Source: a virus
Direction: 5' to 3' (one strand)
DNA: 39,450 nt
Virus record (IMG/VR): IMGVR_UViG_3300046530_000358
Span: 1-39,450 of that record
The notes under the pieces are model-generated. The model was not told the origin of the DNA. It made no database searches and saw only the letters and a program-made list of their open reading frames with translations. Shown here piece after piece: positions 1,548-15,247 of the stretch. Made by a program: the position numbers and the translations under genes. Within the stretch, counting starts at the first letter, position 1. Every line of letters starts with the position of its first letter.

Positions 1548-1793
1548 TTATTGCGCGTCCGGCGCCAGAGTGATCTCGCTGGCTGGAATCGGCGTCGCGC
1601 TTCCCCTGAGATACACGATCGTCTCAATCCCCGTTCCGGTCGCGTCGATGTTGACGACCTGCAGAAAGCTGGCCTTGCCACGGTAGATGACGCGCTGTGC
1701 TTTGTAGGCAGCCCGAATCAGCATTTGATCGTGAGCAAATGCCTTAGCAACGGCTTGTTGCGAGACACTATCCCGAGGTTCGTTCGCTCTCAT
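1548..1793 (-). CDS. Hypothetical protein, 81 aa
   Basis: Small soluble protein of unknown function. It has a strong ribosome site (AGGAGGA) about 6 bases before the ATG at 1793. Its first 26 bases overlap the 3' end of the reverse transcriptase gene in another frame. The N-terminal half looks helical and charged; the second half (about residues 36-75) has alternating hydrophobic residues suggesting beta strands. It ends 2 bases before the next gene. Its position directly downstream of the DGR reverse transcriptase makes it a candidate DGR-linked accessory gene, but nothing in the sequence proves that. Confidence 0.6.
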   Translation of the reverse strand: MRANEPRDSVSQQAVAKAFAHDQMLIRAAYKAQRVIYRGKASFLQVVNIDATGTGIETIVYLRGSATPIPASEITLAPDAQ

Positions 1794-2922
1794 GGCTCCT
1801 CCTGTAGGTTTTGGTCAGCGCTCCGTTGACGGCGTGACCACGTTGCAGCACGGCGCGCGCCAGCGCGGCACGATCATGGTGACTACTGCCGGCCTGGCGC
1901 AGAAGGCCGAAGTAACTATTTGCCGACGTGTAGACGTCGGCGGCATCAATGCCTGAGACCCGGCTTATCGCCTCCCGGACGGTGCGCCGCCGGGTGCTGC
2001 GATGCCAGGGTCGGACCACGTGACCAACGAAGTCCACACCGCGCGCCACCGGCTGAAGGATGGTTTTCGATGGATTGAGCCGGGCATGCAGCCGATCAGG
2101 CAGGAATGCATCTATACGCTGGTGCGCGGCATGGAGCCACTGCGGCGACTCGTGCAGCAGGACGAAGTCATCCACGTAGCGAATGTAGTGCCGCGCGCGG
2201 ACCTGGTGCTTCGCAAACTGATCTAGTGTATTCAGGTAGACGTTGGCGAAGAACTGCGACGACAGATTCCCGATCGGCAGGCCCAGATGCGGCGCTTGGT
2301 TCATGAGCCTCTTGTGCGGTGGTACGCGCGCCAGCAGCTCCGGCGCGCCCCGCAGTTCAAAATCTTCGCGCGGGTCGTGATGGAGGATTACGCCCGCCAG
2401 TTGCATCCACCATGGCTCCTCGATGCGCTCCGCCAGCTGGGCGTCGAGAATGTGTTTGTCGATCGATACGAAAAAGTTGGCCAGATCGCATTTCAGGTAG
2501 TGCAGCGGCTTGGACCAGTTCTGACTGGCGCTGCGGATCTTCGCTTCCAGCCGCTGTGCGGCGTACATCGTGCCGCGCCCAGGGATGCATGCGCAGGTGT
2601 CCGCGATGAAGCTGCGGTAGAAGCGCGGCGCTATCTTGTTGTAGAACAGGTGGTGCACGATGCGGTCGCGGAAGTCGGCGGCCCACACCTCGCGCGCCTT
2701 CGGCCGGGTGACTACAAAGCATATCGACCTGCCGGGCCGATAGGCGCCGGCCACCAACTCCTCGTACAGCTCAAAGAGGTTTTGCTCCAGGCGCTCTTCG
2801 AATCGAAGAGCGCTCTGGGTGTTGCGCTTGTTACGCCGGCAGTCGAAATACGCGACCACCAGCTCCTCCAGCGAAAAGTCCGCAGGAATTGCATCGTTTC
2901 GATCTGCGGACGACGCGCGCAC
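1768..2922 (-). CDS. DGR reverse transcriptase
   Basis: Reverse transcriptase that copies the TR RNA into adenine-mutagenised cDNA for transfer to the variable repeats. From the GTG at 2922 it has about 384 aa. Family motifs: an N-terminal LEELVVAYFDCRRNKRN-type region; catalytic Asp of motif A in KCDLANFFVSID (D146); IGNLSSQ (217-223), the DGR-type version of motif 4 with SQ instead of the SP of retroviral and group II enzymes; YVDD (249-252) with the two catalytic Asp; and a thumb containing GVDFVGHVVRP. The start is uncertain: the frame is open to 3414, but the family-like sequence begins only about 2880, just after the TR. GTG 2922 and ATG 2961 both lie inside the TR; ATG 3168 lies upstream of it. 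The translation upstream of the TR does not look like protein. Order avd-TR-RT is as in Bordetella phage BPP-1. Confidence 0.93.
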   Translation of the reverse strand: MRASSADRNDAIPADFSLEELVVAYFDCRRNKRNTQSALRFEERLEQNLFELYEELVAGAYRPGRSICFVVTRPKAREVWAADFRDRIVHHLFYNKIAPRFYRSFIADTCACIPGRGTMYAAQRLEAKIRSASQNWSKPLHYLKCDLANFFVSIDKHILDAQLAERIEEPWWMQLAGVILHHDPREDFELRGAPELLARVPPHKRLMNQAPHLGLPIGNLSSQFFANVYLNTLDQFAKHQVRARHYIRYVDDFVLLHESPQWLHAAHQRIDAFLPDRLHARLNPSKTILQPVARGVDFVGHVVRPWHRSTRRRTVREAISRVSGIDAADVYTSANSYFGLLRQAGSSHHDRAALARAVLQRGHAVNGALTKTYRRSHESERTSG

Positions 2923-3010
2923 GGCCTTCGTTGTCCTTGTGGTTGTAGTTCTGGTTGCCATCGTTGAAGTTCTGGTTCCACGCGTTGGAAGGGTTGGAGG
3001 CGTGCTGCGT
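2902..3010 (-). repeat. DGR template repeat (TR), 109 bp
   Basis: Read on the minus strand, this stretch would encode TQHASNPSNAWNQNFNDG followed by NQNYNHKDNEGRARVVRR, with nine AAC codons. It matches the 3' ends of three genes (3567-3675, 5971-6079, 6684-6792). Hand alignment gives 10 mismatches to the 6684 copy, 14 to the 5971 copy and 16 to the 3567 copy (leaving out that copy's first codon), all 40 at TR adenines. The last 28 bases (minus-strand 3' end, 2902-2929) are identical in all four copies and are the likely initiation-of-mutagenic-homing region. It lies between avd and the reverse transcriptase core and overlaps the RT start candidates. AAC codons are typical of TRs because adenine changes there reach many amino acids. 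Confidence 0.96.
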
Positions 3011-3182
3011 CCGTTCGTGCTATCTACGTCGCCCCACCGAAGGCCGTGGCCGATCAGCGGGAAAACTGCGCCAGGCCTAGTCGGACACCGCCGGCTGGTT
3101 CCTGTGGTACGCATAGCGGTGGCCTTGTGAGCCAGCGGCACGACCAGATTTAAAAATCGCTCAGACATGACGGCCTTGACGG
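3011..3182 (-). ncRNA. Upstream part of the DGR template RNA (predicted)
   Basis: 172 bases between the stop of the avd-like gene and the TR. The reading frame here runs into the RT frame but has no protein-like composition, and an ATG at 3168 is the only plausible start. In characterised DGRs the functional template RNA extends beyond the TR on both sides and folds with Avd and RT. By analogy this segment is part of that RNA. No structure was computed; the boundary is inferred only from position. Confidence 0.45.
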
Positions 3183-3539
3183 TCAAGTAGCGGGCGACGA
3201 TGCGGATTGCTTGCGCCATCCATTGGCCTGGCGGCCGATCTTCCCGGTCAGCTCGATCGCCTTCGCGAACTGGCCCTTCGAGATCAGTGTCAGGTCGACC
3301 GAAAGCCGGAACAGCAGCTCCGTGACCTGCACACGCTCCAGCAGCAGCGTGAGGTGCGGCACTTTGTTGCGGGCGCAGTTCGCCTTGTAGACCAACAGCG
3401 AAAGCTCCAGGCACTCGGCGTTGATCTTCTGGCCGACCGTTCCCTTGTAGTCGCGCCGCATGTTCTTGATCAGCTCCATGGCAAGCAACATCAGTTCGTA
3501 GGTCAGCTTGTAGATCGGCAGTTCGGTATGGATGGCCAT
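3183..3539 (-). CDS. avd: Avd-like DGR accessory protein (four-helix bundle)
   Basis: Protein of 118 aa, almost entirely helical and basic, in the range of Avd and the related 23S-rRNA-intervening-sequence (four-helix bundle) family. It opens with a YKLTYELMLLAMELIKNMRR-type helix, followed by three more helices with family-like patterns (ECLELSLLVYKANCARNK; LLLERVQVTELLFRLSVDL; FAKAIELTGKIGRQANGWRK). In Bordetella phage BPP-1 Avd forms a pentamer that binds RT and template RNA and is needed for cDNA synthesis; the same role is inferred here. It lies directly downstream of variable gene 1 (13 bases between stop and ATG) and upstream of the TR, the standard order. No strong ribosome site precedes the ATG, so translation may depend on the upstream gene. 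Confidence 0.88.
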   Translation of the reverse strand: MAIHTELPIYKLTYELMLLAMELIKNMRRDYKGTVGQKINAECLELSLLVYKANCARNKVPHLTLLLERVQVTELLFRLSVDLTLISKGQFAKAIELTGKIGRQANGWRKQSASSPAT

Positions 3540-3552
3540 AGGAATGACTAAA

Positions 3553-3924
3553 TTATTGAATGACTAATCTGCGGACGACGCGCGCACGGCCTTCGCCGTC
3601 CTTGTGGTTGTAGAACTGGCCGCCACCGAGGAAGAGCTGGAGCCACGCGAGGGAAGGGTCGGAGGCGTGCTGTTCGCCGGACCAGTACCAGCGGCGCTCA
3701 AACTCTTCCGGCAGGTTGGCGAACAGCAGCGCCTGCTCGCGACGCATTGGCAACTCGCCGCCGGCGCCGCTGGCGAATTCTTTCGCTTCGCTCCACGTCA
3801 CGTCGGTGGCTTGGCCCGGCAGCAGCACCAGGTGGTAATCAGGGGCGCCGTCTTTGCCCAGAATCAGTCCGGCGTACACTTCGCCGGGATTGAGGTTCTG
3901 CTTCAGAAATAGTGCTTTGGTCAT
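3553..3924 (-). CDS. DGR variable protein 1 (DUF1566/C-type-lectin-like)
   Basis: Target protein of the DGR, 123 aa from the ATG at 3924, which has a GGAG ribosome site; the longer frame to 4050 has no such support. It is a single small domain: YAGLILGKDGAPDYHLVLLP strands, then the ELPMRREQALLFANL segment typical of DUF1566-type lectin folds, then the variable C-terminus starting at RWYWSGEQHAS. VR1 differs from the TR at 16 adenines, giving D, L, L, L, L, G, G, F and G at varied positions; four AAC codons became CTC. The end RRLVIQ is encoded outside the repeat. It is the target next to avd, the usual place for the primary target. The ligand is unknown. Unlike targets 2 and 3, no hairpin follows the gene. 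Confidence 0.92.
   Translation of the reverse strand: MTKALFLKQNLNPGEVYAGLILGKDGAPDYHLVLLPGQATDVTWSEAKEFASGAGGELPMRREQALLFANLPEEFERRWYWSGEQHASDPSLAWLQLFLGGGQFYNHKDGEGRARVVRRLVIQ
3567..3675 (-). repeat. DGR variable repeat VR1
   Basis: Copy of the TR at the 3' end of variable gene 1. From CAGCAC onward all 16 differences from the TR fall at TR adenines. The first codon (GAA versus TR ACG) differs at non-adenine positions, so the true 5' boundary is probably about 3672. The 28-base invariant 3' end abuts the last codons of the gene. Confidence 0.94.
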
Positions 3925-3986
3925 CTTGGTCTCCAGTTGAGGGATCGCCGCCACTGACGGTAGCGGGCTTTGTGCTGCGTGCTGCG

Positions 3987-4103
3987 TTACCACCAGTTCC
4001 AGATCAATGCAGCGATCAGGATTCCGTAGATCAGGAAAATCTCGCCCCACACCTCGCGCGGACGATTTGGCTTGCGACTCGGTCCTTTATCGATCCGCTT
4101 CAT
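3987..4103 (-). CDS. Small membrane protein, 38 aa
   Basis: Starts at the ATG at 4103, overlapping the stop of the HD-domain gene (ATGA), and ends at 3987. A basic N-terminal half ([19 protein letters not shown]) is followed by one hydrophobic segment ([14 protein letters not shown]) and ends NWW: a one-pass inner-membrane protein with cytoplasmic N-terminus by the positive-inside rule. Function unknown. Tight coupling to the HD gene supports it being real despite its size. The 62 bases between it and variable gene 1 carry only that gene's ribosome site. Confidence 0.6.
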
Positions 4104-4669
4104 GACGCCGCTGCCTTGCTCTCTAAAGGCCGTGAGCTGGTCAATTCGAAATAGCGGGCGAGGAAAAGCGCCTTGGCTGGTGCCGGCGCGAGCGGCGTGA
4201 TCGACTTGGTAAGCGGGACCACGCCAGCCAGACAGGCCCACTCGCCAGAGCCTTGTGGCATGAGGTCGCGTTGCTCGGTAGCCAGCATCACCATGTCGGC
4301 AATTTTGATGTCCGCTGGCAGCGGAAGCCCCACGCCGAAGCGCGCCAGAACTGCGCATTCAACTTTACGCTCCAGTTCCTTGTAGTCGGGCAGCATCGCC
4401 TTCAGCGGGCGCGACACATCACCGATGAATGCCTCTGCCGCGTCGTGAAGCAGCCCTTCCAGTGCAAACTTGCGCGGAACGATCTGACTGACCAGCACAG
4501 AATGCTGCGCTACGGAATAGAACTCGCGCACGTGGCCGGTGAAACGGCAGATGTGCGCCAGGGCGTGGGCAATGTCTTCAATACCGAAGATCGATTCGCC
4601 TGGCGTCACGAAGTTGAAGTAATTACCGGACTGCGTGAAGATATCGGGCCGCATCGTCGCGTAGCTCAT
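4100..4669 (-). CDS. HD-domain phosphohydrolase (YfbR-like)
   Basis: Soluble 189-aa protein with an HD metal-dependent phosphohydrolase domain: H56 (AQHSVL), H75-D76 (LLHDAAEAF), and a conserved IGDVSRPLK loop. The pattern resembles the YfbR 5'-deoxynucleotidase branch, which removes phosphate from deoxynucleoside monophosphates. In a phage this could alter the nucleotide pool; the substrate here is an inference. The start overlaps the stop of rdgC (ATGA at 4669-4666) and its own stop overlaps the small membrane protein, so the three are likely translated together. It lies between two DGR target genes on the same strand. Confidence 0.82.
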
Positions 4670-5565
4670 GCTTTGGCCTCCCCGCCCAGCGCTTCGACGA
4701 TGTCGGCGAGCAGTTTACTCAGCTCGCCCGTCATCAGCATGAAATCGCCATCGAAGCGCTCTTCATCGCTCTTCGCACCCAAGTCTTTCTCATTCAAGAC
4801 GTCGAGCGCCTTGACCCCTTTAATCGCCAGCGATTCGGTGAGTACGAAGGAGATCTTGCTATCCCACGTCATTGCCAGGCGCGTGCATTGCTTGCCGGCG
4901 GCGATGTGGCGGCGCACCTCGTCCGGATCGAGCGAGTGCTTCACATAGCGCACCGCAGCCTTGCTGGCACCGGTCGAGCGTAGCTCGGCGTCCATATCGA
5001 CAGTGAACCCGGCTGGCGCCGCGTCGTCTTGCAGCCATGCGGTCATGATCGCAACCGGCGAGCGTTGGACGCGCAGGCTTTCCAGCGGCATACGGTCGAC
5101 TGCCTTGAGCAGCATCTTGATTACTTCATCAGCCTTGGCTGGCGAAGCTGCATCGACAACAAGCCAGCCGTTGACCGGATCGATCCACACCCGCGTGTGA
5201 TTGGGGACGATCAACGCGTTCGGCAGCAGCTCATCGGCGATAAGCTCCTTCAGTTCCTTCATCGCCTTTTTGCCCGGAGCGAATCCTTGTTGCTGCTCCA
5301 GTTCGGCCGCGCGCTCTTTCGCCAGTTTGTTGATCGCCTTTGCCGGCATCACTTTCTTTTCCGTCTTCAGCTGCAGCAGCATCTGCCGATTGACGGTGTG
5401 CACCAGGTCGCCATCGTCGCGTGGCGGCACCCAGCCTTGGCGCTCCAGATCATTGCTTCCGAGTGGCACGAACCACTGTGGCAGCAGCAATTCGATCAGT
5501 GCAGCTGGCGTCATAGCCCAGTTTGTTGGCAGGCGGTAGACCTGCAAATTTTTCAGCCAAGTCAT
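4666..5565 (-). CDS. rdgC: Recombination-associated protein RdgC
   Basis: 299-aa protein with the RdgC family signature: N-terminal [12 protein letters not shown], then GWVPP and [21 protein letters not shown]-type segments, and a C-terminal region with [20 protein letters not shown]. RdgC forms a ring-shaped dimer on DNA and moderates RecA loading. It is usually chromosomal in Beta- and Gammaproteobacteria but is also found on phages. Full family length. Here it is inside the leftward operon between two DGR target genes, so it would be induced with them; whether it affects homing of cDNA or only phage recombination cannot be told from sequence. Confidence 0.9.
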
Positions 5566-5574
5566 AATTATTTC

Positions 5575-5769
5575 CTAGTTGTTGGATTTAAGAAGCGCTT
5601 CCATGCGATCTGCAGCCGCGCTCTCGGCCGCCAGCGCCGCGCGCAGCTCAGTGCGCCGCGCGTTGAATTCCGCGAAGAGTTCAGCCGTCCGCTCGGTGCA
5701 CTGACGGTAGGCACGGATCGCTGCGCGCCGGCGAAAGTAGAGCGCCCAGGCGCTTACGATGCGCTTCAT
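5575..5769 (-). CDS. Hypothetical protein, 64 aa
   Basis: Small basic, alanine- and arginine-rich helical protein (MKRIVSAWALYFRRRAAI...), with a predicted helix from about residue 25 to the end (TAELFAEFNARRTELRAALA) that could form a coiled coil. The start overlaps the stop of the preceding small gene (ATGA at 5769-5766). It lies 9 bases upstream of rdgC. No family recognised. Its coupling to neighbours is the main evidence for it. Confidence 0.55.
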   Translation of the reverse strand: MKRIVSAWALYFRRRAAIRAYRQCTERTAELFAEFNARRTELRAALAAESAAADRMEALLKSNN

Positions 5770-5897
5770 GGCCGCACCATCGCGGTGACGCCCAGCGCTC
5801 CGGCGTCGTATGCTGCATCGATGAGCAAACCCAGATCGCCGATTGCGGCGTAGCTGCGCATTCCATCGGCGGTGCGTTCGGTGATGAGGTACTTCAT
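5766..5897 (-). CDS. Hypothetical protein, 43 aa
   Basis: Short protein starting MKYLITERTADGMRSYAAIG. The ATG at 5897 is preceded by a GGAGATACAC leader almost identical to that in front of variable gene 2 (GGAGATACACC before 6601), so it has its own ribosome site. The sequence predicts two short beta strands and a helix; no family recognised. Its stop overlaps the next start (ATGA). Confidence 0.55.
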   Translation of the reverse strand: MKYLITERTADGMRSYAAIGDLGLLIDAAYDAGALGVTAMVRP

Positions 5898-5921
5898 GTG
5901 TATCTCCATCAGGTTGCGGAT

Positions 5922-5937
5922 GCGCCGTCGCCGGCGC
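5922..5937 (-). other. GC-rich hairpin with GNRA loop downstream of VR2
   Basis: On the minus strand: a 6-bp stem GCGCCG/CGGCGC closed by the tetraloop GCGA, 33 bases after the end of VR2 and about 20 after the stop codon. No T tract follows, so it is a poor terminator. In Bordetella phage BPP-1 a GC-rich hairpin downstream of VR enhances retrohoming; this may be the equivalent, though further from the VR. Confidence 0.5.
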
Positions 5938-5956
5938 GGCGTTTTGAATTGATGAA

Positions 5957-6601
5957 TTACTGAATTGGCAATCTGCGGACGACGCGCGCACGGCCTTCGT
6001 AGTCCTTGCGGCTGAAGTCCTGGATGCCAGCGTCGAAGCCCTGGCCCCACGCGTTGGAAGGGTAGGAGGCGCGCTGCGTGCTGGACCAGTACCACCAGTC
6101 TTCGAACGCGTCGGCGCCGCCTTCGCGGAAGTTCTCCAGCGCGGTTTGCGCAGGGAATTCGTCGGTATAGGCATCGCCAACTGGCACGCTGCTCGGATTA
6201 ATTCCGTCCTCGCCGTCGGCGTAGTTCTCGTAGCTGGTCGGCTTGAATGCGCGGTATTGCAGCTCCTGCTCGTCGCGAGACGGCACGTACCAGTCGCTGT
6301 AGCCGTTGATCGTCAGTGCCAGCGCTGCCTTGGCCAGTTCGCTGCCGGCGCCAGCCAGGGCCTCGGTGTTCTTCTGTCCGTCGGCGCGGTGATCTGCGCC
6401 ATCAACAGCGGTCAGGTCCGGCTGCAGCTTGCCGCGCAGTGTACCGGCGGCGCCGGCCGTGATCAGCGCGAACTGCTTGTCGCCCACCTGGATGATGCCG
6501 GTGTAGAAGCCGCCAGCGAAGGCCGCGCCGATGGTCGGCAATGCCGCCAACGGGACGGTTGGAAAGGCGGTTTCAGTTGCTGCGGCTACAGAAGTGCTCA
6601 T
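5957..6601 (-). CDS. DGR variable protein 2 (DUF1566/C-type-lectin-like)
   Basis: 214-aa target protein. The ATG at 6601 has a GGAG ribosome site. After a short Ala/Thr-rich N-terminus, residues from about 29 on resemble variable protein 3: GGFYTGIIQVGDKQFALITAG, then NGYSDWYVPSRDEQELQYRA, the hallmark of DUF1566-type lectin folds, then the variable end from YWSSTQRAS. VR2 differs from the TR at 14 adenines, including a His-to-Arg at TQR and changes at GAT and TAC codons. No signal peptide is seen, so export would have to occur by virion attachment, lysis or another route. Together with protein 3 it forms a pair of paralogues; both end RRLPI. Ligand unknown. Confidence 0.92.
   Translation of the reverse strand: MSTSVAAATETAFPTVPLAALPTIGAAFAGGFYTGIIQVGDKQFALITAGAAGTLRGKLQPDLTAVDGADHRADGQKNTEALAGAGSELAKAALALTINGYSDWYVPSRDEQELQYRAFKPTSYENYADGEDGINPSSVPVGDAYTDEFPAQTALENFREGGADAFEDWWYWSSTQRASYPSNAWGQGFDAGIQDFSRKDYEGRARVVRRLPIQ
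5971..6079 (-). repeat. DGR variable repeat VR2
   Basis: 109-bp copy of the TR at the 3' end of variable gene 2; 14 mismatches, all at TR adenines, and an invariant 28-base 3' end. Confidence 0.95.
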
Positions 6602-6635
6602 GGTGTATCTCCATAGGTTAGAAATAAAAGAAACT

Positions 6636-6652
6636 CCGGCGCCGCGCGCCGG
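6636..6652 (-). other. GC-rich hairpin downstream of VR3
   Basis: Stem CCGGCGC/GCGCCGG with a 3-base loop, 31 bases after the end of VR3 and about 20 after the stop codon of variable gene 3. No T tract. Position matches the hairpin after VR2, supporting a shared role, for example in DGR homing. Confidence 0.5.
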
Positions 6653-6672
6653 CTTACGAAATTACTGAAGGA

Positions 6673-7479
6673 CTAAATTGGCAATCTGCGGACGACGCGC
6701 GCACGGCCTTCGTCGTCCTTGTGGCCGTAGTCCTGGTAGCCATCGTTGAAGTACTGGACCCACGCGTAGGAAGGGTAGGAGGCGTGCTGCGTGCTGGACC
6801 AGTACCAGGCCTCGGCGAACGCGTCGACACCACCGGAGCGGAAGTTGGAGGCGCCGGTCTGCGCCGGCAAATCCTTCGTGTACAGCTTACCGACTGGTGC
6901 GCTACTTGGGTTTTCGCCATCGCCGCTACTGACGTAGTTGGGTCGCGTGGTTGGCTTGAGGTTGCGGTACTGGAGTTCCTGCTCGTCACGCGATGGGATG
7001 TACCAGTCGTTGTGGCTGTTGGTATTGAGCGCGAAGGCCTGCGCGGCAATGGTGCTCCCGGCCATCGCCATCTTGCGGGTGTTGGCGAGCCCATCGCAGC
7101 GGCTGGTGGCACCTTCGACGCTGGCGCCGCTCCATGCTCCGCGCAGCTCGCCGTCGACGCCGGCCGTGATCAGCGCGTATCGCTGACCATCAACCACGAT
7201 GATGCCGGTGAAGTATCCGCCGCCCAGCGGCGCGCCGAAGCGCATGCCTTCGAAGAAGGTCGCCGCGCCGGCGCCCAGATGGGCAATCAGTTCAGGGGAC
7301 GCGGTGATGATGCGCTGCTCGGCGTCGAGCACAATGAGGTGCTGGCCGGCGCGGTCGGTGTATTCGGTGAGGCCTTTCCACGTCGAGGAGATGGCCAGGC
7401 CAGTAATTGTGCGATCACCCAGCTTGGCGCTATAGGTGCGTTCTTCGGTGATGCTCAGGACTGCGGCGGTAGGCGCCAT
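6673..7479 (-). CDS. DGR variable protein 3 (DUF1566/C-type-lectin-like)
   Basis: 268-aa target protein and first gene of the leftward operon. I chose the ATG at 7479 because GGAG lies 6 bases before it; the ATG at 7491 would include that ribosome site in the coding sequence. An N-terminal part of about 75 residues absent from protein 2 (containing TITGLAISSTWKGLTEYTD) is followed by GGGYFTGIIVVDGQRYALI, the NSHNDWYIPSRDEQELQYRN lectin-fold signature and the variable end from YWSSTQHAS. VR3 differs from the TR at 10 adenines; five AAC codons are altered to TAC or GTC and others to GAC or GGC, giving an aromatic-rich surface (Y, Y, V, Y, Y). It is the least diverged of the three VRs, so it may be the most recently rewritten or under selection. 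Confidence 0.92.
   Translation of the reverse strand: MAPTAAVLSITEERTYSAKLGDRTITGLAISSTWKGLTEYTDRAGQHLIVLDAEQRIITASPELIAHLGAGAATFFEGMRFGAPLGGGYFTGIIVVDGQRYALITAGVDGELRGAWSGASVEGATSRCDGLANTRKMAMAGSTIAAQAFALNTNSHNDWYIPSRDEQELQYRNLKPTTRPNYVSSGDGENPSSAPVGKLYTKDLPAQTGASNFRSGGVDAFAEAWYWSSTQHASYPSYAWVQYFNDGYQDYGHKDDEGRARVVRRLPI
6684..6792 (-). repeat. DGR variable repeat VR3
   Basis: 109-bp copy of the TR at the 3' end of variable gene 3; 10 mismatches, all at TR adenines, with the invariant 28-base 3' end. Confidence 0.95.
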
Positions 7480-7514
7480 GTTGTTCTCCATCGGTTTGGT
7501 GAGTCGATGGAGTG

Positions 7515-7542
7515 ATTATAGCTAATAGCTAAATTAAGTAAA
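7515..7542 (-). promoter_or_regulatory. Leftward early promoter (pL-like) of the DGR operon
   Basis: Read on the minus strand: -35 TTTACT (7542-7537), 16-bp spacer, perfect -10 TATAAT (7520-7515). Transcription would start near 7508, giving a leader of about 30 bases before variable gene 3. Operator 7519-7531 overlaps the spacer and the last two bases of the -10. The arrangement is the same as at the cro promoter. Confidence 0.8.
7519..7531. promoter_or_regulatory. Repressor operator-like palindrome oL-a
   Basis: TAGC-TAATA-GCTA. Same half-sites and spacing as the palindromes between cI and cro; overlaps the leftward promoter. Confidence 0.7.
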
Positions 7543-7551
7543 GAAAAAATA

Positions 7552-7564
7552 TAGCGATTAGCTA
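7552..7564. promoter_or_regulatory. Repressor operator-like palindrome oL-b
   Basis: TAGC-GATTA-GCTA, the exact reverse complement of the site at 8830-8842. Lies just upstream of the leftward -35 element, centre 33 bp from oL-a. Confidence 0.7.
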
Positions 7565-7622
7565 AATTATTTTTTACCCTTAGTTATGCGCGTTGTGTTT
7601 CCGCACTGCGAACTTTGTTGCT

Positions 7623-8012
7623 TTATCGGTACTCGCCGCCCAGCGCAACGCAGTTGATGCTTTGGGGATCATCTAGCTTGACCGCTGTCCCCTTGCCTAC
7701 TGGTCGAGACCAGGCGAGCAGCCCGAATTTTTGGCCTGTATCCATGCTCACGATGGCGTCTGCGCCGATCCGCCTGGCGTCCGCCGCCATCAACGGGAGC
7801 AGTTCATTTACGCTGCCATACGTGCGCTTTGAACTATCTATCAAGCCGATAGTCGTCGCCGTGACGCCAACGGGGAGCGGGGATTTGAGCATACACACCG
7901 GTCCGGTGTGGCTGGCATACGTTTTCTCTGGGTAAGGTGAGAGTTTCACCGTCGACCTAGCGGCACACCCGCAAAGAACCATCGTTATCACAATTCCTGA
8001 AATGATCTTCAT
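7623..8012 (-). CDS. Putative lipoprotein, possible lysogenic conversion gene
   Basis: 129 aa from the ATG at 8012. The N-terminus is a lipoprotein signal: MKIISGIVITMVLCGCAARS, with lipobox LCGC and Cys about residue 16. A longer frame to 8135 overlaps the repressor gene and would hide the signal, so I rejected it. The mature part contains ADARRIGADAIVSMDTGQKF, which resembles the repeated-gene/metal-binding-like lipoproteins with a 'xADAIVxM' core, but I cannot assign a family firmly. It follows cI on the same strand with 28 bases between and could be expressed from the prophage with the repressor. Morons in this place often alter the cell surface or block superinfection; that is an inference. 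Confidence 0.75.
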   Translation of the reverse strand: MKIISGIVITMVLCGCAARSTVKLSPYPEKTYASHTGPVCMLKSPLPVGVTATTIGLIDSSKRTYGSVNELLPLMAADARRIGADAIVSMDTGQKFGLLAWSRPVGKGTAVKLDDPQSINCVALGGEYR

Positions 8013-8040
8013 AAATCCCCTATTATGGCCAGCGCCTGGT

Positions 8041-8769
8041 TTAAAATTTTGAGCCTTCCCGCCGAACAACTCGCCCGACGACAATACATTCGCCGCCCCG
8101 GCATGATCGCCTATGAAATCGCCGCTGGTCAGCATTGTCTGACATTAGCCACCATTGCCCTTGGTCCCGCGCCAAGCGTTTGACGATTGCCTCGCCCTCA
8201 TAGTTCACCGCGTAAATTGCGTTGTCTACCAATTTGCGGTCAGCCAAATTGATCACGATGGTATCGCCCTCGTAGAGGGTCGGCTCCATGCTTTCACCCT
8301 TAACCTGGATTGCGACGAGATGTGCAGGGTCCAGGCCTTCACGATCCGTCCAGTCGCGAGGGATGCTTTTCTTGCCACCCGATTGATACTCTGGATCCGT
8401 TCGTAAGCCTTGAACACCGGCTTGCAGCCTAAGTCTCACCAGGGGAATCTGATAAAAATGTTCGGAATCAGCATCCACTGCTACTACCGGCACGCCACCT
8501 GGGAAAATCTGTTCGACTGCCGCCAAATCGAGCTGATCGTGATCCGTATCCATCCAGCCTGGCGCTTCATCCAATGCAGATTCGATCCGGCGGGCCAGGT
8601 CTTCGCCCATAGTCTTCGGCTTCCCCGTCTTGCTTTCGGGGGTCTGGTTTTTCAACTGGCTCAAATAGGCAGCCGAAGTCCCGACGCGCTCCGCCAGCTT
8701 CGCAGCCGTTTGCATTCGATCTATTGCCAGCAGCAGATTCGCTCGGCGGATTTCATCGTTAGTTTTCAT
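8041..8769 (-). CDS. CI-type repressor with S24 (LexA-like) peptidase domain
   Basis: 242 aa. N-terminal helix-turn-helix (about 12-45, with TAAKLAERVGTSAAYLSQLK), linker, and C-terminal S24 domain with the Ser-Lys dyad: S160 in GESMEPT and K197 in EAIVKRL. A likely self-cleavage site is A117-G118 (RLQAGVQ). Such repressors hold the prophage silent and are inactivated through RecA after DNA damage. I chose the ATG at 8769; the ATG at 8787 lies inside an operator. No ribosome site is seen before 8769; a TATCTA element ends 8 bases upstream, so the mRNA may be leaderless as for lambda cI. It faces the Cro-like gene. Identical operator motifs at the leftward promoter imply it also silences the DGR operon. 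Confidence 0.92.
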   Translation of the reverse strand: MKTNDEIRRANLLLAIDRMQTAAKLAERVGTSAAYLSQLKNQTPESKTGKPKTMGEDLARRIESALDEAPGWMDTDHDQLDLAAVEQIFPGGVPVVAVDADSEHFYQIPLVRLRLQAGVQGLRTDPEYQSGGKKSIPRDWTDREGLDPAHLVAIQVKGESMEPTLYEGDTIVINLADRKLVDNAIYAVNYEGEAIVKRLARDQGQWWLMSDNADQRRFHRRSCRGGECIVVGRVVRREGSKF

Positions 8770-8781
8770 AGGGCTATTAGA

Positions 8782-8794
8782 TAGCATATCGCTA
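8782..8794. promoter_or_regulatory. Repressor operator-like palindrome near cI
   Basis: TAGC-ATATC-GCTA. Centre 8788, exactly 24 bp from the degenerate middle site (8806-8818, only the GCTA half preserved, centre 8812), which is 24 bp from the cro-proximal site (centre 8836). Overlaps the probable cI promoter. Confidence 0.7.
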
Positions 8795-8818
8795 AATAAG
8801 AAAATGTGTGATTCGCTA

Positions 8819-9218: not shown

Positions 9219-9662
9219 ATGAATATCCCCGACACCCTGTACAAGACCGCGCACGACTTCGCCGGTGGCTGCGAAGCGCTGGCTCAGCGGCTGGGCATGT
9301 CTGCGCAGGTCCTGCGCAACAAGGTCAATCCGAACAACGCCTCGAACACCGCCTCGCTGGAAGACGCTGATCGGATCATGGCAATCACCAACGATCACGC
9401 GGTTCTGCACGCGCTGGCACGCAGCCACGGCTTCGTCTGCGTGCGCGTGGATACCGGCGCCGTCGCATCGGACATGGCGGTGCTGGAGCTGGTGATGCAG
9501 GTTTGGTCCGCTAGCGGCGACGTCGGAGCCGAGGTGCACGCCACTCTGGCGGACGGCATCGTCGAGCAGCACGAAGTGGAGCGCGTAGAGGCTGCTGTCT
9601 ACCGCGTCAATCGCTCGCTGAGCGAAATGGCCGCCCGCTTGAAAGGCATGGTGAAGAAATGA
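9219..9662 (+). CDS. CII-like phage regulatory protein (Phage_CP76 family)
   Basis: 147-aa protein. The first 70 residues (MNIPDTLYKTAHDFAGGCEA, LAQRLGMSAQVLRNKVNPNN) are characteristic of the Phage_CP76/CII-like family: a helix-turn-helix with a conserved LRNKxNP motif. The C-terminal part is helical. Its role is likely early regulation, possibly the lysis-lysogeny choice. I chose ATG 9219 (AAAGG upstream); the longer frame to 9117 covers AT-rich leader. The stop overlaps the next small start (ATGA at 9659). Confidence 0.85.
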   Translation: MNIPDTLYKTAHDFAGGCEALAQRLGMSAQVLRNKVNPNNASNTASLEDADRIMAITNDHAVLHALARSHGFVCVRVDTGAVASDMAVLELVMQVWSASGDVGAEVHATLADGIVEQHEVERVEAAVYRVNRSLSEMAARLKGMVKK

Positions 9663-9787
9663 CAGTGGCATCGAATAAAGAATCGAAGGAACCGGTGGCG
9701 CCAGCCACGCGGGAGTTTGATCCGGGCCATGTAATGACCCGGCAGCACTACGAGCGCCTGGCCCGCGAAGCTGCGGCCCAGAAATAG
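9659..9787 (+). CDS. Small hypothetical protein, 42 aa
   Basis: Starts MTVASNKESKEPVAPATREF, charged and soluble, with a helical C-terminus (TRQHYERLAREAAAQK). It overlaps the CII-like gene stop (ATGA) and ends 2 bases before a hairpin terminator. No family recognised. Coupling and correct spacing to the terminator support it. Confidence 0.55.
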   Translation: MTVASNKESKEPVAPATREFDPGHVMTRQHYERLAREAAAQK

Positions 9788-9789
9788 GA

Positions 9790-9812
9790 AAGGCCCGCGT
9801 GGGGCGGGCCTT
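9790..9812 (+). terminator. Hairpin terminator after the CII-like gene pair
   Basis: 9-bp stem AAGGCCCGC/GCGGGCCTT with a 5-base loop directly after the small gene. Only two T follow the stem, so termination may be partial; an early-gene terminator here resembles lambda tR1 in position. Confidence 0.55.
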
Positions 9813-9843
9813 AGGTACAACGAAACGAATAAGGACATTATCC

Positions 9844-10191
9844 ATGAAACTTCCTCCTTCGCATAGCCGCGCGCGCACTATTTTGTCCGCGCTGCTGAAC
9901 AAGTCGGCCACCGTGGCCGATGGCATCGAACGCCACAGCGCCCTCGGCCTGTCCAAGCAGGGCGTAGCTGATCTCTATCTTCACCTGGAAATCGGCGGCT
10001 GGCTGGTCAAGTCGGGCGATACCTACTCGGTCAGCACCGCTGGTCGCAAGCGCCTGGCGCCGACCGAGCAGACCGACGACACGCCTCCAACCGAGCCTGC
10101 ATATCGCGGCAACTGGCAGATTGGCTCGCTGAACGCCGCCACCGCGCGCCGCTCTGGCGCCGCCTTCGGCCTTGACTGGATTCGCCCATGA
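9844..10191 (+). CDS. Putative winged-helix-like small protein
   Basis: 115 aa from ATG 9844, with an AAGGA ribosome site. Residues about 8-65 (ARTILSALLNKSATVADGIE, VADLYLHLEIGGWLVKSGDT) look like a winged helix-turn-helix with a beta hairpin, as in many small DNA-binding proteins; the C-terminal 45 residues are low-complexity and end FGLDWIRP. No exact family recognised. First gene of the early right operon after the terminator; its stop overlaps the next start (ATGA). Confidence 0.65.
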   Translation: MKLPPSHSRARTILSALLNKSATVADGIERHSALGLSKQGVADLYLHLEIGGWLVKSGDTYSVSTAGRKRLAPTEQTDDTPPTEPAYRGNWQIGSLNAATARRSGAAFGLDWIRP

Positions 10192-10301: not shown

Positions 10302-10595
10302 ACGCCGGCGCAGAAGTGATGATCGCCGGGGGGGGGGCATCAATTTCAGCATGGTCGCCTGCGCAGACTGGACGCGGCCTCCTACACAATTCCTTTCGCA
10401 CACGTTCAGCTGCGCGGCGTCAAGGGAACGTTGCTGAAAAATCGTTGGGCCTTCGTGCCGGCGAAGTATCTGGTCGAGTTCGACGTGGAAGCGCTCCGCG
10501 AGGGCGAAATGCGCAAGACGGCCGAGCGCTATGGTGCCGACTCGGACGCATACAAGCGCATGCTCAAGCTAATGGAGGTCGCGCATGAAGCGTGA
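10298..10595 (+). pseudogene. Gene split by a frameshift at a G10 tract
   Basis: The ATG at 10298 (overlapping the previous stop) reads MNAGAEVMIAGGG and reaches a run of ten G at 10328-10337. The downstream part with clear coding character (SYTIPFAHVQLRGVKGTLLK, NRWAFVPAKYLVEFDVEALR, then EGEMRKTAERYGADSDAYKR and MLKLMEVAHEA) is in another frame, open from 10323 to a TGA at 10593 but with no start codon. With nine G instead of ten the two parts join into one protein of about 98 aa. Causes could be a sequencing error, a real mutation, or slippage-based on/off switching. The 3' end overlaps the methyltransferase start by 11 bases. No family recognised. Confidence 0.6.
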
Positions 10596-12681
10596 TTTCC
10601 TGACCTTGCAACTTGACCTCGGACACGAACTGATCATCGACAACTTTGCTGGCGGTGGTGGTACCAGCACTGGCCTTGAGGAGGCATTTGGTCGGCCGGT
10701 CGACATCGCGATCAATCACGACCCAGAGGCATTGGCGCTTCACGCCATGAATCATCCGCACACGAAGCACTTGTGTGAAAGCGTGTGGGACGTGGACCCG
10801 ATCAAGGTGACGAACAACCAGCCGGTCGGGCTGGTCTGGCTCAGCCCCGATTGTAAGCATTTTAGTAAGGCGAAGGGCGGCACGCCGGTGGCGAAGAACA
10901 TTCGCGGCCTGGCCTGGGTGACGCTGCGCTGGGCGGCGAAGTGCAAACCGCGCGTGATCATGCTGGAGAACGTCGAAGAATTTAAAACGTGGGGGCCGCT
11001 GCTGGTCGACGCCGAGGGCAACTTCAGGCCGGACCCGGCGAAGAAGGGCAAAACCTTCGAGAGCTTCTTGCGCCAGTTGCGCGGCCACGGCTACACGGTC
11101 GACCACAAGGAACTTCGCGCAAGCGACTTCGACACGCCGACCATCCGGAAGCGCTTCTTCCTGGTGGCGCGCCGCGACGGCCTGCCGATCCGCTGGCCAG
11201 CGCCGACCAACGGCGCCCCGACTTCCGCCGGCGTGCTGGCCGGGAACCTAGCACCGTGGCGCACGGCCGCCGAATGCATCGACTGGTCTATTCCATGCCC
11301 ATCGATCTTCGAGCGCAAGCGCCCCCTGGCCGACGCCACGCTGCGCCGCATAGCCAAAGGCATCCAGCGCTACGTGGTGGACGCTGAGACGCCGTTCATC
11401 ATCGGCCAGGGCGGCCCTATTTATTCCGGCAAGCCGGTGTCGGCCGAGCAGCCGTTCGGCACGCTGACTACCGAAAATCATCGCGCGTTGGTCGTCCCGA
11501 GCATCGTGCCTGTAACGCACCAGGGTAGCGACCGCAGCGAATCGGTGCACGAGCCGTTCCGCACTATCACCAGTGCGCAGCGCGGCGAGAAAGCGCTGGC
11601 CGTCGCCACCATGGTGCAGACCGGCTACGGCGAGCGCGATGGGCAGACGCCACGCGCGCTAGACATCGAGAAGCCGCTGGGCACGGTTGTGGCCGGCGCC
11701 AGCAAGGCGGCGCTGGTGACCGCTTTCCTGAACGAGCACGCCAATTCCAGCAATCAGCGCACGATGCCAGCCGACGAGCCGCTGCGCACGATCTGCGCAC
11801 AGGTCAAAGGCGGTCACTTCAGCATGGTGTCGGCCGAGCTGGCGCCGTTCGTCATGACCAACACAACCGGCCACACAGGTGCTCAGGTTGGTGCTCCAGT
11901 GCCTACAGTTACGGCTGCAGGAAATCAGGCGCTGGTCACAGCCCACATCACCAAATTCCGCACCGGCGCCACCGGCAGCGACATGAACGACCCTGTGCCG
12001 ACGATTACCGCCGGTCCGAAGGAAAACCCGGCCGGCGCGCCGCACGCGCTGGGCGTGGTCACCGCGAGCTTGGTCCACATGGGGCACGGAGAAGGGGCTG
12101 GCGGCGGCAAGCGCTTCAGCCATGGTATTCGCGATGTCGAGCAACCGCTGAATACCATCACCGCAAGCGGCAGCCCGGGAGCGGTCGTCACGAGCAGCCT
12201 CGTCAAGCTGCGCGGCACCAGCAGCACGGCCGGCATGGACGAGCCGCTGCACACAGTCAGCGCCGGCGGCCAGCACCACGCAGAGGTGCGCGCCTTCCTT
12301 GTGAAATACTACGGCACCGACCAGGATCCGCGCCTCGAAGAACCGCTGCACACGGTTACTACCAAGGACCGCTACGGTTTGGTGACGATCGAGGGCGTCG
12401 ATTATCAGATCGTCGATATCGGTCTGCGCATGCTGGAGCCAGCCGAGCTTTATCGCGCACAGGGCTTCCCGGCCAGCTACGTAATCCGCGAAATCCCGGA
12501 TCCAAAGCTGCTGTTCAGGGATGGCCACCAAGCCGATGGTGACCCCTTGGCGCTGCCACGCGTGCCGCTGACGAAATCGGCGCAGGTGCGCATGTGTGGC
12601 AACAGCGTCTGCCCACCGATGGCGCGGGCGTTGATTCAGGCCAATTTCGCGCACGAACAAAGAATGATGAGGGTTGCATGA
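10585..12681 (+). CDS. DNA cytosine-5 methyltransferase with internal repeats
   Basis: 698 aa. It has the m5C methyltransferase motifs: motif I FAGGGGTSTGLEEAFG (21-36) for AdoMet, motif IV SPDCKHFS with catalytic C90 (PDC in place of the usual PPC), motif VI LENVEEF (127-133), motif VIII-like region near 185-195, and motif IX/X (YRAQGFPASYVI; RMCGNSVCPP at 669-678). Between residues 285 and 600 there are nine repeats of an EPLxTIxA-like unit at about 288, 323, 363, 398, 437, 470, 519, 553 and 586, in the place of the target-recognition domain. No endonuclease partner is adjacent, so it is likely an orphan enzyme protecting phage DNA from host restriction. It overlaps the replication gene at its end (ATGA). 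Confidence 0.92.
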   Translation: MKRDFLTLQLDLGHELIIDNFAGGGGTSTGLEEAFGRPVDIAINHDPEALALHAMNHPHTKHLCESVWDVDPIKVTNNQPVGLVWLSPDCKHFSKAKGGTPVAKNIRGLAWVTLRWAAKCKPRVIMLENVEEFKTWGPLLVDAEGNFRPDPAKKGKTFESFLRQLRGHGYTVDHKELRASDFDTPTIRKRFFLVARRDGLPIRWPAPTNGAPTSAGVLAGNLAPWRTAAECIDWSIPCPSIFERKRPLADATLRRIAKGIQRYVVDAETPFIIGQGGPIYSGKPVSAEQPFGTLTTENHRALVVPSIVPVTHQGSDRSESVHEPFRTITSAQRGEKALAVATMVQTGYGERDGQTPRALDIEKPLGTVVAGASKAALVTAFLNEHANSSNQRTMPADEPLRTICAQVKGGHFSMVSAELAPFVMTNTTGHTGAQVGAPVPTVTAAGNQALVTAHITKFRTGATGSDMNDPVPTITAGPKENPAGAPHALGVVTASLVHMGHGEGAGGGKRFSHGIRDVEQPLNTITASGSPGAVVTSSLVKLRGTSSTAGMDEPLHTVSAGGQHHAEVRAFLVKYYGTDQDPRLEEPLHTVTTKDRYGLVTIEGVDYQIVDIGLRMLEPAELYRAQGFPASYVIREIPDPKLLFRDGHQADGDPLALPRVPLTKSAQVRMCGNSVCPPMARALIQANFAHEQRMMRVA

Positions 12682-14203: not shown

Positions 14204-15247
14204 TTGAGCATTGACGTTTGGCGTGTGGGCCGCATTTACCACTACCGGTTCCAGGTGAAGCCGTTCCGGCGCGTGCAGCGAAGCACCCGGCTGCGCGACA
14301 AGCAAAAGGCGCTGGTCGTGGCGGAGCGTGCCTACAGTGCGGCAGTGGCGCGCGCCAACGGCGGCAATCCGATACCGACGCTGATCGAGCTGATCAACGA
14401 ATGGCACCATGTGCACGCATGCCACTCCAGCGCGCACCACGTGCGCAGCATCAAGACTTTCACGAAACTTCACCTGTACGGCATGGGCGACCGGCTGGTG
14501 AGCGAGCTGGACACCATCACCGTCGAGCGCGCCCGCGCCCTGCATCTGAATGGTCGGGCCTTCTCCACTGCCAACCACTGGCTGCGCATCCTCAAGCTGC
14601 TGGTCAGCTGGGCGGTGAAACGCAAAATCCTCCCACGCCTGCCGTGGGACGTCGCGATGCTCAGCGTACAGAAGCGCCCGCGCGCCATTCTGCCCATGGC
14701 CGATGTCCTGTCGTGGTTCGAAGTGGTCGACCAGGCCGGCCGCGCCCCGGCGCTCAGCACCGCCGCCCGCTTGATGCTGTGGCTGGGCCTGCGTGAATCC
14801 GAGGTTATCACTGCCCGATGGGAATGGTTCGACTGGGAGCGCGCCACCTACACCCCGGGCCTAACCAAGGGGAGGGAGGCCGATGCGCTGCGCGTGCTGC
14901 CGCAATTGGCCGGCTACCTGGCGCCATTGCGAGCCACCGAAGGCCTCGTGGCCTGCCGCGCCGACGGCACTCCGTACGGCCCCGGCTTCATGCGCGACGT
15001 CATCCGTGTCGCCAACGCCGCATGCAAGATCAAGGGCATCACCCCGCACCGCCTGCGCGGCACGATCGCGACCTGGCTGTCCGAGAGCGGCACCCCGGCG
15101 CAAGACGTACAGGCTTTCCTGCGGCACAAAGACATCAGGACAACGATGGCCTACCTCGAAAAGAACATGGACCGCGTCAGCGCGGCGCAAGAAAAAATCG
15201 CCGAAAAAGCGGGTTTAACATGGCGAGAAAATGGCGAACAACTTTGA
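14204..15247 (+). CDS. Second tyrosine recombinase
   Basis: 347 aa, starting at a TTG (14204) with a strong AGGAGGAG ribosome site 7-8 bases before it. Domains: N-terminal arm/SAM-like region (about 1-155) and catalytic domain with all key residues: R197 (LGLRESEV), H282 and R285 (PHRLRG), H308 (LRHKD) and Y317. It is unlike the integrase at 1-1071 and lies on the opposite strand in the early operon, between the replication genes and a candidate late regulator. Possible roles: resolution of replicated concatemers or dimers, a second integration specificity, or excision. Nothing in the window shows which. The 118 bases after it hold no gene I can support. Confidence 0.9.
   Translation: MSIDVWRVGRIYHYRFQVKPFRRVQRSTRLRDKQKALVVAERAYSAAVARANGGNPIPTLIELINEWHHVHACHSSAHHVRSIKTFTKLHLYGMGDRLVSELDTITVERARALHLNGRAFSTANHWLRILKLLVSWAVKRKILPRLPWDVAMLSVQKRPRAILPMADVLSWFEVVDQAGRAPALSTAARLMLWLGLRESEVITARWEWFDWERATYTPGLTKGREADALRVLPQLAGYLAPLRATEGLVACRADGTPYGPGFMRDVIRVANAACKIKGITPHRLRGTIATWLSESGTPAQDVQAFLRHKDIRTTMAYLEKNMDRVSAAQEKIAEKAGLTWRENGEQL

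Follow-up and report, generated by a model that had tools for sequence, protein, structure and literature searches.

How can a diversity-generating retroelement (DGR) choose the start site of its mutagenic cDNA when no 3′ spacer follows its template? This choice is known in detail for Bordetella phage BPP-1 alone, where it is made through a 3′ spacer. The question is raised by a locus in the IMG/VR virus record IMGVR_UViG_3300046530_000358, of which we analyzed 39,450 bases (the window). The window is a temperate tailed phage with genes for a repressor, integrase, terminase, portal, capsid, tape measure and lysozyme, and its host is probably a member of the Oxalobacteraceae, the nearest relative being in Duganella. 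We found that the template repeat (TR) of its DGR is preceded by a structured RNA leader, and that across the lineage a motif in this leader covaries with the 3′ end of the TR.

By every defining test run on its sequence, the locus is a DGR and a member of a multi-target lineage. Its DGR-type reverse transcriptase (RT, 1768–2961; features lie on the minus strand unless noted) matches Pfam RVT_1 (E = 2.7e-12), is named as an RT in PHROGs (phrog_1423) and contains RYVDD and IGNLSSQ in its translation. The accessory variability determinant, avd (3183–3539), matches bAvd (E = 2.5e-10) and the PHROGs entry 'Avd protein of DGR' (phrog_3206). The TR (2902–3010, with homology reaching 2897–3012 at most) corresponds to three variable repeats (VRs), VR1 (3567–3672), VR2 (5971–6079) and VR3 (6684–6792). 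In a 109-nt register, the VRs differ from the TR at 19, 14 and 10 positions, respectively; three of the 19 mismatches in VR1 are its first three bases, which lie outside the repeat, and the remaining 40 (16 + 14 + 10) all fall at TR adenines. With about 31 adenines among the 106 nt common to TR and VRs, the probability of such a result by chance is about 0.29^40. An independent repeat search and a self-BLAST recovered the same four copies. A preliminary description of this DNA had reported a complete DGR with one TR, three VRs and their target genes, all 40 mismatches at TR adenines with the first codon of VR1 outside the repeat, and a YVDD RT carrying IGNLSSQ beside an Avd-like protein. Each of these statements was reproduced, and its count of 28 unchanged positions at the repeat end becomes 29, identical in the TR and the VRs.

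Directly 5′ of the TR, between it and avd, lies a 192-nt structured RNA (3008–3199) that is a clear member of Rfam family RF03018, which Rfam names simply RT-15 RNA (176.5 bits versus a gathering cut-off of 82 bits, E = 8e-44). When the Rfam structure was imposed on 40 loci of the lineage, 91.4% of cells were paired, compared to 84.3% in shuffled and 32–43% in slid alignments, exceeding all 500 shuffles, and two-sided changes were present in 33 of 56 pairs. Covariation in these alignments shows that the predicted template RNA bears a structured 5′ leader. In held-out loci, our own model of the leader placed it immediately 5′ of the TR; the model had no match in other DGR lineages. Moreover, when 300 genomes from the order were scanned with RF03018, blind to the RT, all six matches above the cut-off fell between avd and a TR-RT pair; three sub-threshold matches did not. 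We also considered RT-15 as a component common to all DGRs and rejected this, as neither the Rfam cut-off nor our own model detected it in BPP-1, phiARM81mr, BalMu-1, VP585, L024 or L027.

The RT gene occupies the place where a 3′ spacer would be expected. The TR runs into the RT frame, and the RT most likely starts inside the TR, at an in-frame ATG (2961) or GTG (2922), because there is no start codon between the TR end and the conserved N-terminal RT motif. The same arrangement, with no start codon from the TR end to this motif and one within the TR, holds in 38 of 96 loci, including the window, and neither condition holds in six. The preliminary description had presented the open reading frame at 1768–3414 as the RT; the RT is present there, but the whole frame is not RT, since it reads through the TR and leader, and the RT proper ends at 1768. 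A 3′ spacer is absent because the RT frame overlaps the TR, and the window has no structured spacer of the RF03022 type between TR and RT. A spacer-like element hidden in the 5′ part of the RT coding region was rejected as well, as codon conservation there is not raised (1.06 versus 1.11). Separately, a near-palindrome within the RT gene (2787–2818) matches its own reverse complement.

The 3′ end of the TR carries CAGAU, complementary to an invariant unpaired AUCUGG in the leader, and the two strands of the predicted long-range helix lie at 3145–3154 (leader) and 2897–2906 (TR end, CAGAUCGAAA). Pairs 1–5 are nearly invariant. At pair 7, just beyond the TR/VR homology, the two bases are complementary in 90% of 90 loci, compared to 33% expected from composition, with four pair types (C, A, G and T). 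On an RT tree built without the first 12 RT residues, both sides of pair 7 change on 12 branches, of which 10 keep the pair, versus 1.1 expected; other registers show at most three compensatory changes each. In pair-count controls, 48 two-sided cells were observed, compared to 18.9 after shuffling and 4–26 after sliding. When leaders were swapped with those of their nearest relatives, the observed TR match was never reached in 2000 draws, while the VR match was reached in 90. Own and swapped loci showed no difference in the general duplex energy of the leader with the TR end, and the signal is confined to the position-specific test. Covariation across the lineage shows that the AUCUGG motif is predicted to pair with the TR 3′ end and the bases that follow it. 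In the simplest reading, the leader is anchored at the TR 3′ end, and the structure found after the TR in BPP-1 would here come before it.

Comparison shows that Avd and RT copy the one TR into three targets with C-type-lectin folds, mutating at template adenines. The leader-TR helix would close the ~110-nt TR into a loop and place the leader beside its 3′ end, in the position of the 3′ spacer of BPP-1. The leader could then replace the spacer, recruit the RT-Avd complex and prime cDNA synthesis at the paired end. Priming at this end is suggested by BPP-1 (PMC12875486) and by the position of the homology boundary, which coincides with the helix: TR and VRs cease to match at CAGAT, within the helix, and the adjacent leader base is usually A. 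GC hairpins about 26–37 nt past the VRs may mark the recipients; strong ones occur past 30% of VRs in the lineage, versus 0.7% in shuffles, and the window has a 6-bp hairpin ~28 nt past VR2 (5922–5937), which resembles the BPP-1 stem-loop, and a 7-bp hairpin ~26 nt past VR3 (6636–6652). A repressor-controlled left operon would express the system early in infection or induction, and the targets would perhaps bind variable factors of the host or of rival phages.

Comparisons within the lineage bear on whether such a system is still operating. RT searches yielded 22 IMG/VR loci, a handful of annotated phages at 60–67% identity and 80 bacterial contigs, mostly from Oxalobacteraceae, other Burkholderiales and Pseudomonas, the closest being Duganella flavida (88%). 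All plasmid-borne relatives were below 60% identity, and INPHARED held no near-identical phage records. VRs were located by a script that compares each TR region with its whole locus and allows at most one non-A mismatch per 60 nt. Loci L016 and L025 share 99.5% identity over 8 kb and an identical TR, yet each of their two VRs differs at 17 of 44 TR-A sites, compared to 0/66 and 1/66 other sites. In the pair L010/L011 (92% identity), divergence affects all three VRs, with 13, 15 and 16 of the 33 A sites changed and none of the 77 others. Across the lineage, TR/VR differences occupy 2875 of 6899 A sites and 173 of 15,547 non-A sites, the latter limited by the search rule, and template adenines are changed to G (1433), T (961) or C (481). 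Where TRs differ at non-A bases between genomes, the VR has the base of its own TR 10,289 times and that of the other 74 times, a ratio helped in part by the search rule. This indicates that the TR of the same genome is the source from which VRs are rewritten. The DGR of the window is probably working, or was very recently, as judged from these relatives, which upholds the earlier proposal of an active or recently active element. The preliminary description had named two outcomes in related genomes that would speak against it, VR differences spread over all bases or no VR variation; the comparison showed neither.

We then counted targets after removing near-duplicates. The count covered 83 loci, among them the window, whose sequence extends 9 kb or more upstream of the RT. 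There were 0, 1, 2, 3 and 4 VRs in 1, 3, 51, 26 and 2 loci, respectively, so that 79 of 83 have at least two and 28 have at least three. Therefore, several targets per TR are the rule in this lineage, and three targets in one phage, which had seemed unusual, are not so here, where some loci have four or five. The largest set is on a shorter contig (L009, 1–3047), where five VRs share one TR and one of them is cut by the contig end. By comparison, a published survey, as cited in PMC10743442, gives two targets for about 13% of DGRs, and multiple VRs were reported in 28.6% (PMC6642488). One locus (L045, about 9600–10060) has a target gene that runs directly into the RT with a TR-like A-rich end, while avd and leader were not found; it looks like the product of recombination between a VR and the TR that looped out the middle of the cassette.

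The three targets of the window carry, or resemble, a C-type-lectin domain. Target 1 (3553–3924, 123 aa) adjoins avd, target 2 (5957–6601) has 214 aa, and target 3 (6673–7491) has 272 aa, or 268 aa from ATG 7479. All three match Lcl_C/DUF1566 (PF07603), with scores of 20.8, 35.0 and 38.3, respectively, versus a gathering cut-off of 34.9, which target 1 does not reach; the profile of the target 1 group matches the Lcl structure 8q4e (E = 6e-9), and the structure of target 1 alone gave a moderate model with weak lectin-fold matches. For target 3, the model shows a C-type-lectin fold in the C-terminal domain, where pLDDT is mostly about 90; this domain matches Legionella Lcl (Z = 11.9) and a Bacteroides fimbrial protein (Z = 11.2). 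No known fold was found for its N-terminal ~65 residues, a low-confidence part of the model.

The location of the targets points to early expression. They lie downstream of the repressor and on its strand, opposite to the late genes, within the module from the CI/LexA-like repressor (8041–8787, Peptidase_S24 by Pfam and PHROGs) to the tyrosine integrase that closes it (1–1203, Pfam); none is in the tail module, where an Mtd-like tail-fiber gene would be. Target 3 is the first gene after a predicted pL-like promoter (7515–7542, TTTACT-16-TATAAT, 10/12 matches), a site within 20-nt repeats shared with the upstream region of the repressor. Two operator-like copies (7517–7536 and 7550–7569; 7517–7569 overall, strand unassigned) lie there, and a third (8780–8799) is beside the repressor gene. 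Promoter-like sites in this region are no more frequent than in shuffles, and the predicted promoter is weak alone. In Cruim01, Magia and Haboob, the cassette is likewise between repressor and integrase, and in QDWS it is upstream of the integrase and co-oriented with it, with late genes on the other strand. Early expression of the targets is likely on this arrangement, and the targets lack export signals. The putative left operon would be under repressor control, and therefore the targets are more likely to be early intracellular binding proteins than late tail fibers.

Taken as a whole, we consider it quite probable that this is a working or recently working DGR with a 5′ leader paired to the TR 3′ end and with early intracellular targets. 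More tentatively, and with somewhat less than even confidence, we propose that its RNA is a circularly permuted form of the DGR RNA: the structure that recruits the RT and primes cDNA would lie 5′ of the template and be brought to its 3′ end by a helix, leaving the RT free to overlap the template, and the diversified proteins would be early intracellular binders, not tail fibers. Several observations weigh against this account. The window's own helix has 5 + 3 bp, as pairs 1–5 and 8–10 form while pairs 6 and 7 are open, and pair 6 is unpaired in about half of the lineage. The leader also covaries with VR1 at position 6 (three compensatory changes versus 0.5 expected), and part of its motif may also read the target. 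We infer priming by the leader, and the window phage's own activity, the latter from relatives. The promoter and operator calls are pattern matches, and incorporation into virions is compatible with the absence of a Sec signal.

The covariation at position 6 would be expected if the motif were a guide that recognizes the VR 3′ end in target DNA or mRNA and not the TR end. The motif is indeed complementary to CAGATT at VR ends, and in L098/L100 and L053 it changes along with the VRs; nonetheless, position 7 tracks the TR far more closely than VR1 (43% complementary, four compensatory changes versus 2.1), and nearest-relative swaps separate the TR match from the VR match, which makes such a guide improbable. 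A decayed element, in which the VR patterns are fossils and the machinery of this phage is dead, has precedents. Medea1 and Aurca01 (L129 and L132, about 6270–8160) and vB_Pae_U7 (L131, 5246–6441) have lost the DGR machinery, with an RT remnant of ~65 residues with a stop or nothing left, and keep two target genes as frozen targets, in which differences from the TR of a relative are nearly confined to adenines. In the window, however, the RT, avd, leader and TR are intact, as is every VR, the VRs carry their own TR's non-A base in 18 of 18 differences from the nearest relative (L031), and other relatives show fresh A-only divergence; we regard decay as very unlikely.

An ordinary BPP-1-type DGR, whose targets are receptor-binding proteins packaged into virions later and whose early placement is incidental, deserves more weight, and we still judge it unlikely. 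The usual targets of phage DGRs are host-attachment proteins (PMC8144416), and the fold recalls the Lcl adhesin domain and the fimbrial protein. Yet all 220 VRs of the lineage lie upstream of the RT on the RT strand, the annotated relatives keep their cassettes between repressor and integrase and not among tail or virion genes, and the structured RNA is 5′, not 3′, of the TR. The adhesin-like fold and the adjoining repressor would also suit adhesins displayed on the lysogen surface through lysogenic conversion. Among 213 targets of the lineage, with start codons picked by a simple rule, a hydrophobic stretch at the N terminus was seen in one and a lipobox-like match in one, each of them weak, and the overlap of the predicted promoter with operator-like repeats implies repression in lysogens; a role on the lysogen surface has very little probability.

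The preferred reading, a leader paired to the TR end, departs from known systems in specific ways. BPP-1 (mtd-avd-TR-brt, with RF03022 Phage_DGR) shares Avd, adenine-specific TR-to-VR transfer, a VR at the 3′ end of a C-type-lectin-fold protein and a hairpin after the VR. However, it has one target in the tail module, a structured RNA 3′ of the TR and ~144 nt from TR to brt, whereas the window has three targets in an early module, the RNA 5′ of the TR and an RT frame overlapping the TR. BalMu-1 has a DGR-associated Rfam RNA 3′ of the TR, as BPP-1 does and unlike the window, and the cassettes of phiARM81mr, VP585 and BPP-1 are among tail or virion genes. Burkholderia phage Magia (MT701587) belongs to the same lineage (RT 65%) and shares the RT-15 leader and early module; two of its proteins are annotated as possible lectin-fold DGR targets. 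It differs in sequence and host, and its annotation lacks the leader, the overlap and the third VR found here. The gut phage DGRs nd4/nd12 (PMC10743442), which are not of this lineage, also use one system for several (two) lectin-fold targets, but among these is a gene with Ig-like domains whose VR is near its 5′ end. Multi-target DUF1566 DGRs such as that of Stenotrophomonas SKA14, which has two TRs (PMC6642488), serve several lectin-fold targets too, likewise outside this lineage. The variant traits of the present lineage are the 5′ leader, the RT-TR overlap and the covarying leader-TR helix, part of which may be known from the original description of RT-15; here RF03018 is connected with the TRs of DGRs and with a helix that involves the TR 3′ end. 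The preliminary description had not noted the 5′ RNA, the lack of a 3′ spacer, the leader-TR pairing or the placement in an early operon. A large, active lineage that lacks a 3′ spacer and whose leader covaries with the template end would represent a second solution to start-site choice, with a base pair that can be tested. A multi-target DGR in an early, repressor-controlled operon also raises the question of how a phage benefits from hypervariable proteins that are produced ahead of the virion.

Between targets 1 and 2 lie genes for a 5′-deoxynucleotidase-like protein (4100–4669) and RdgC (4666–5565), both identified with Pfam and PHROGs. In addition to the integrase at 1–1203, the window encodes another tyrosine recombinase (14204–15247, plus strand), making two in one phage. 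A C5 cytosine methyltransferase of 698 aa (10585–12681, plus strand) has repeated 'EPL.T..' segments in its middle.

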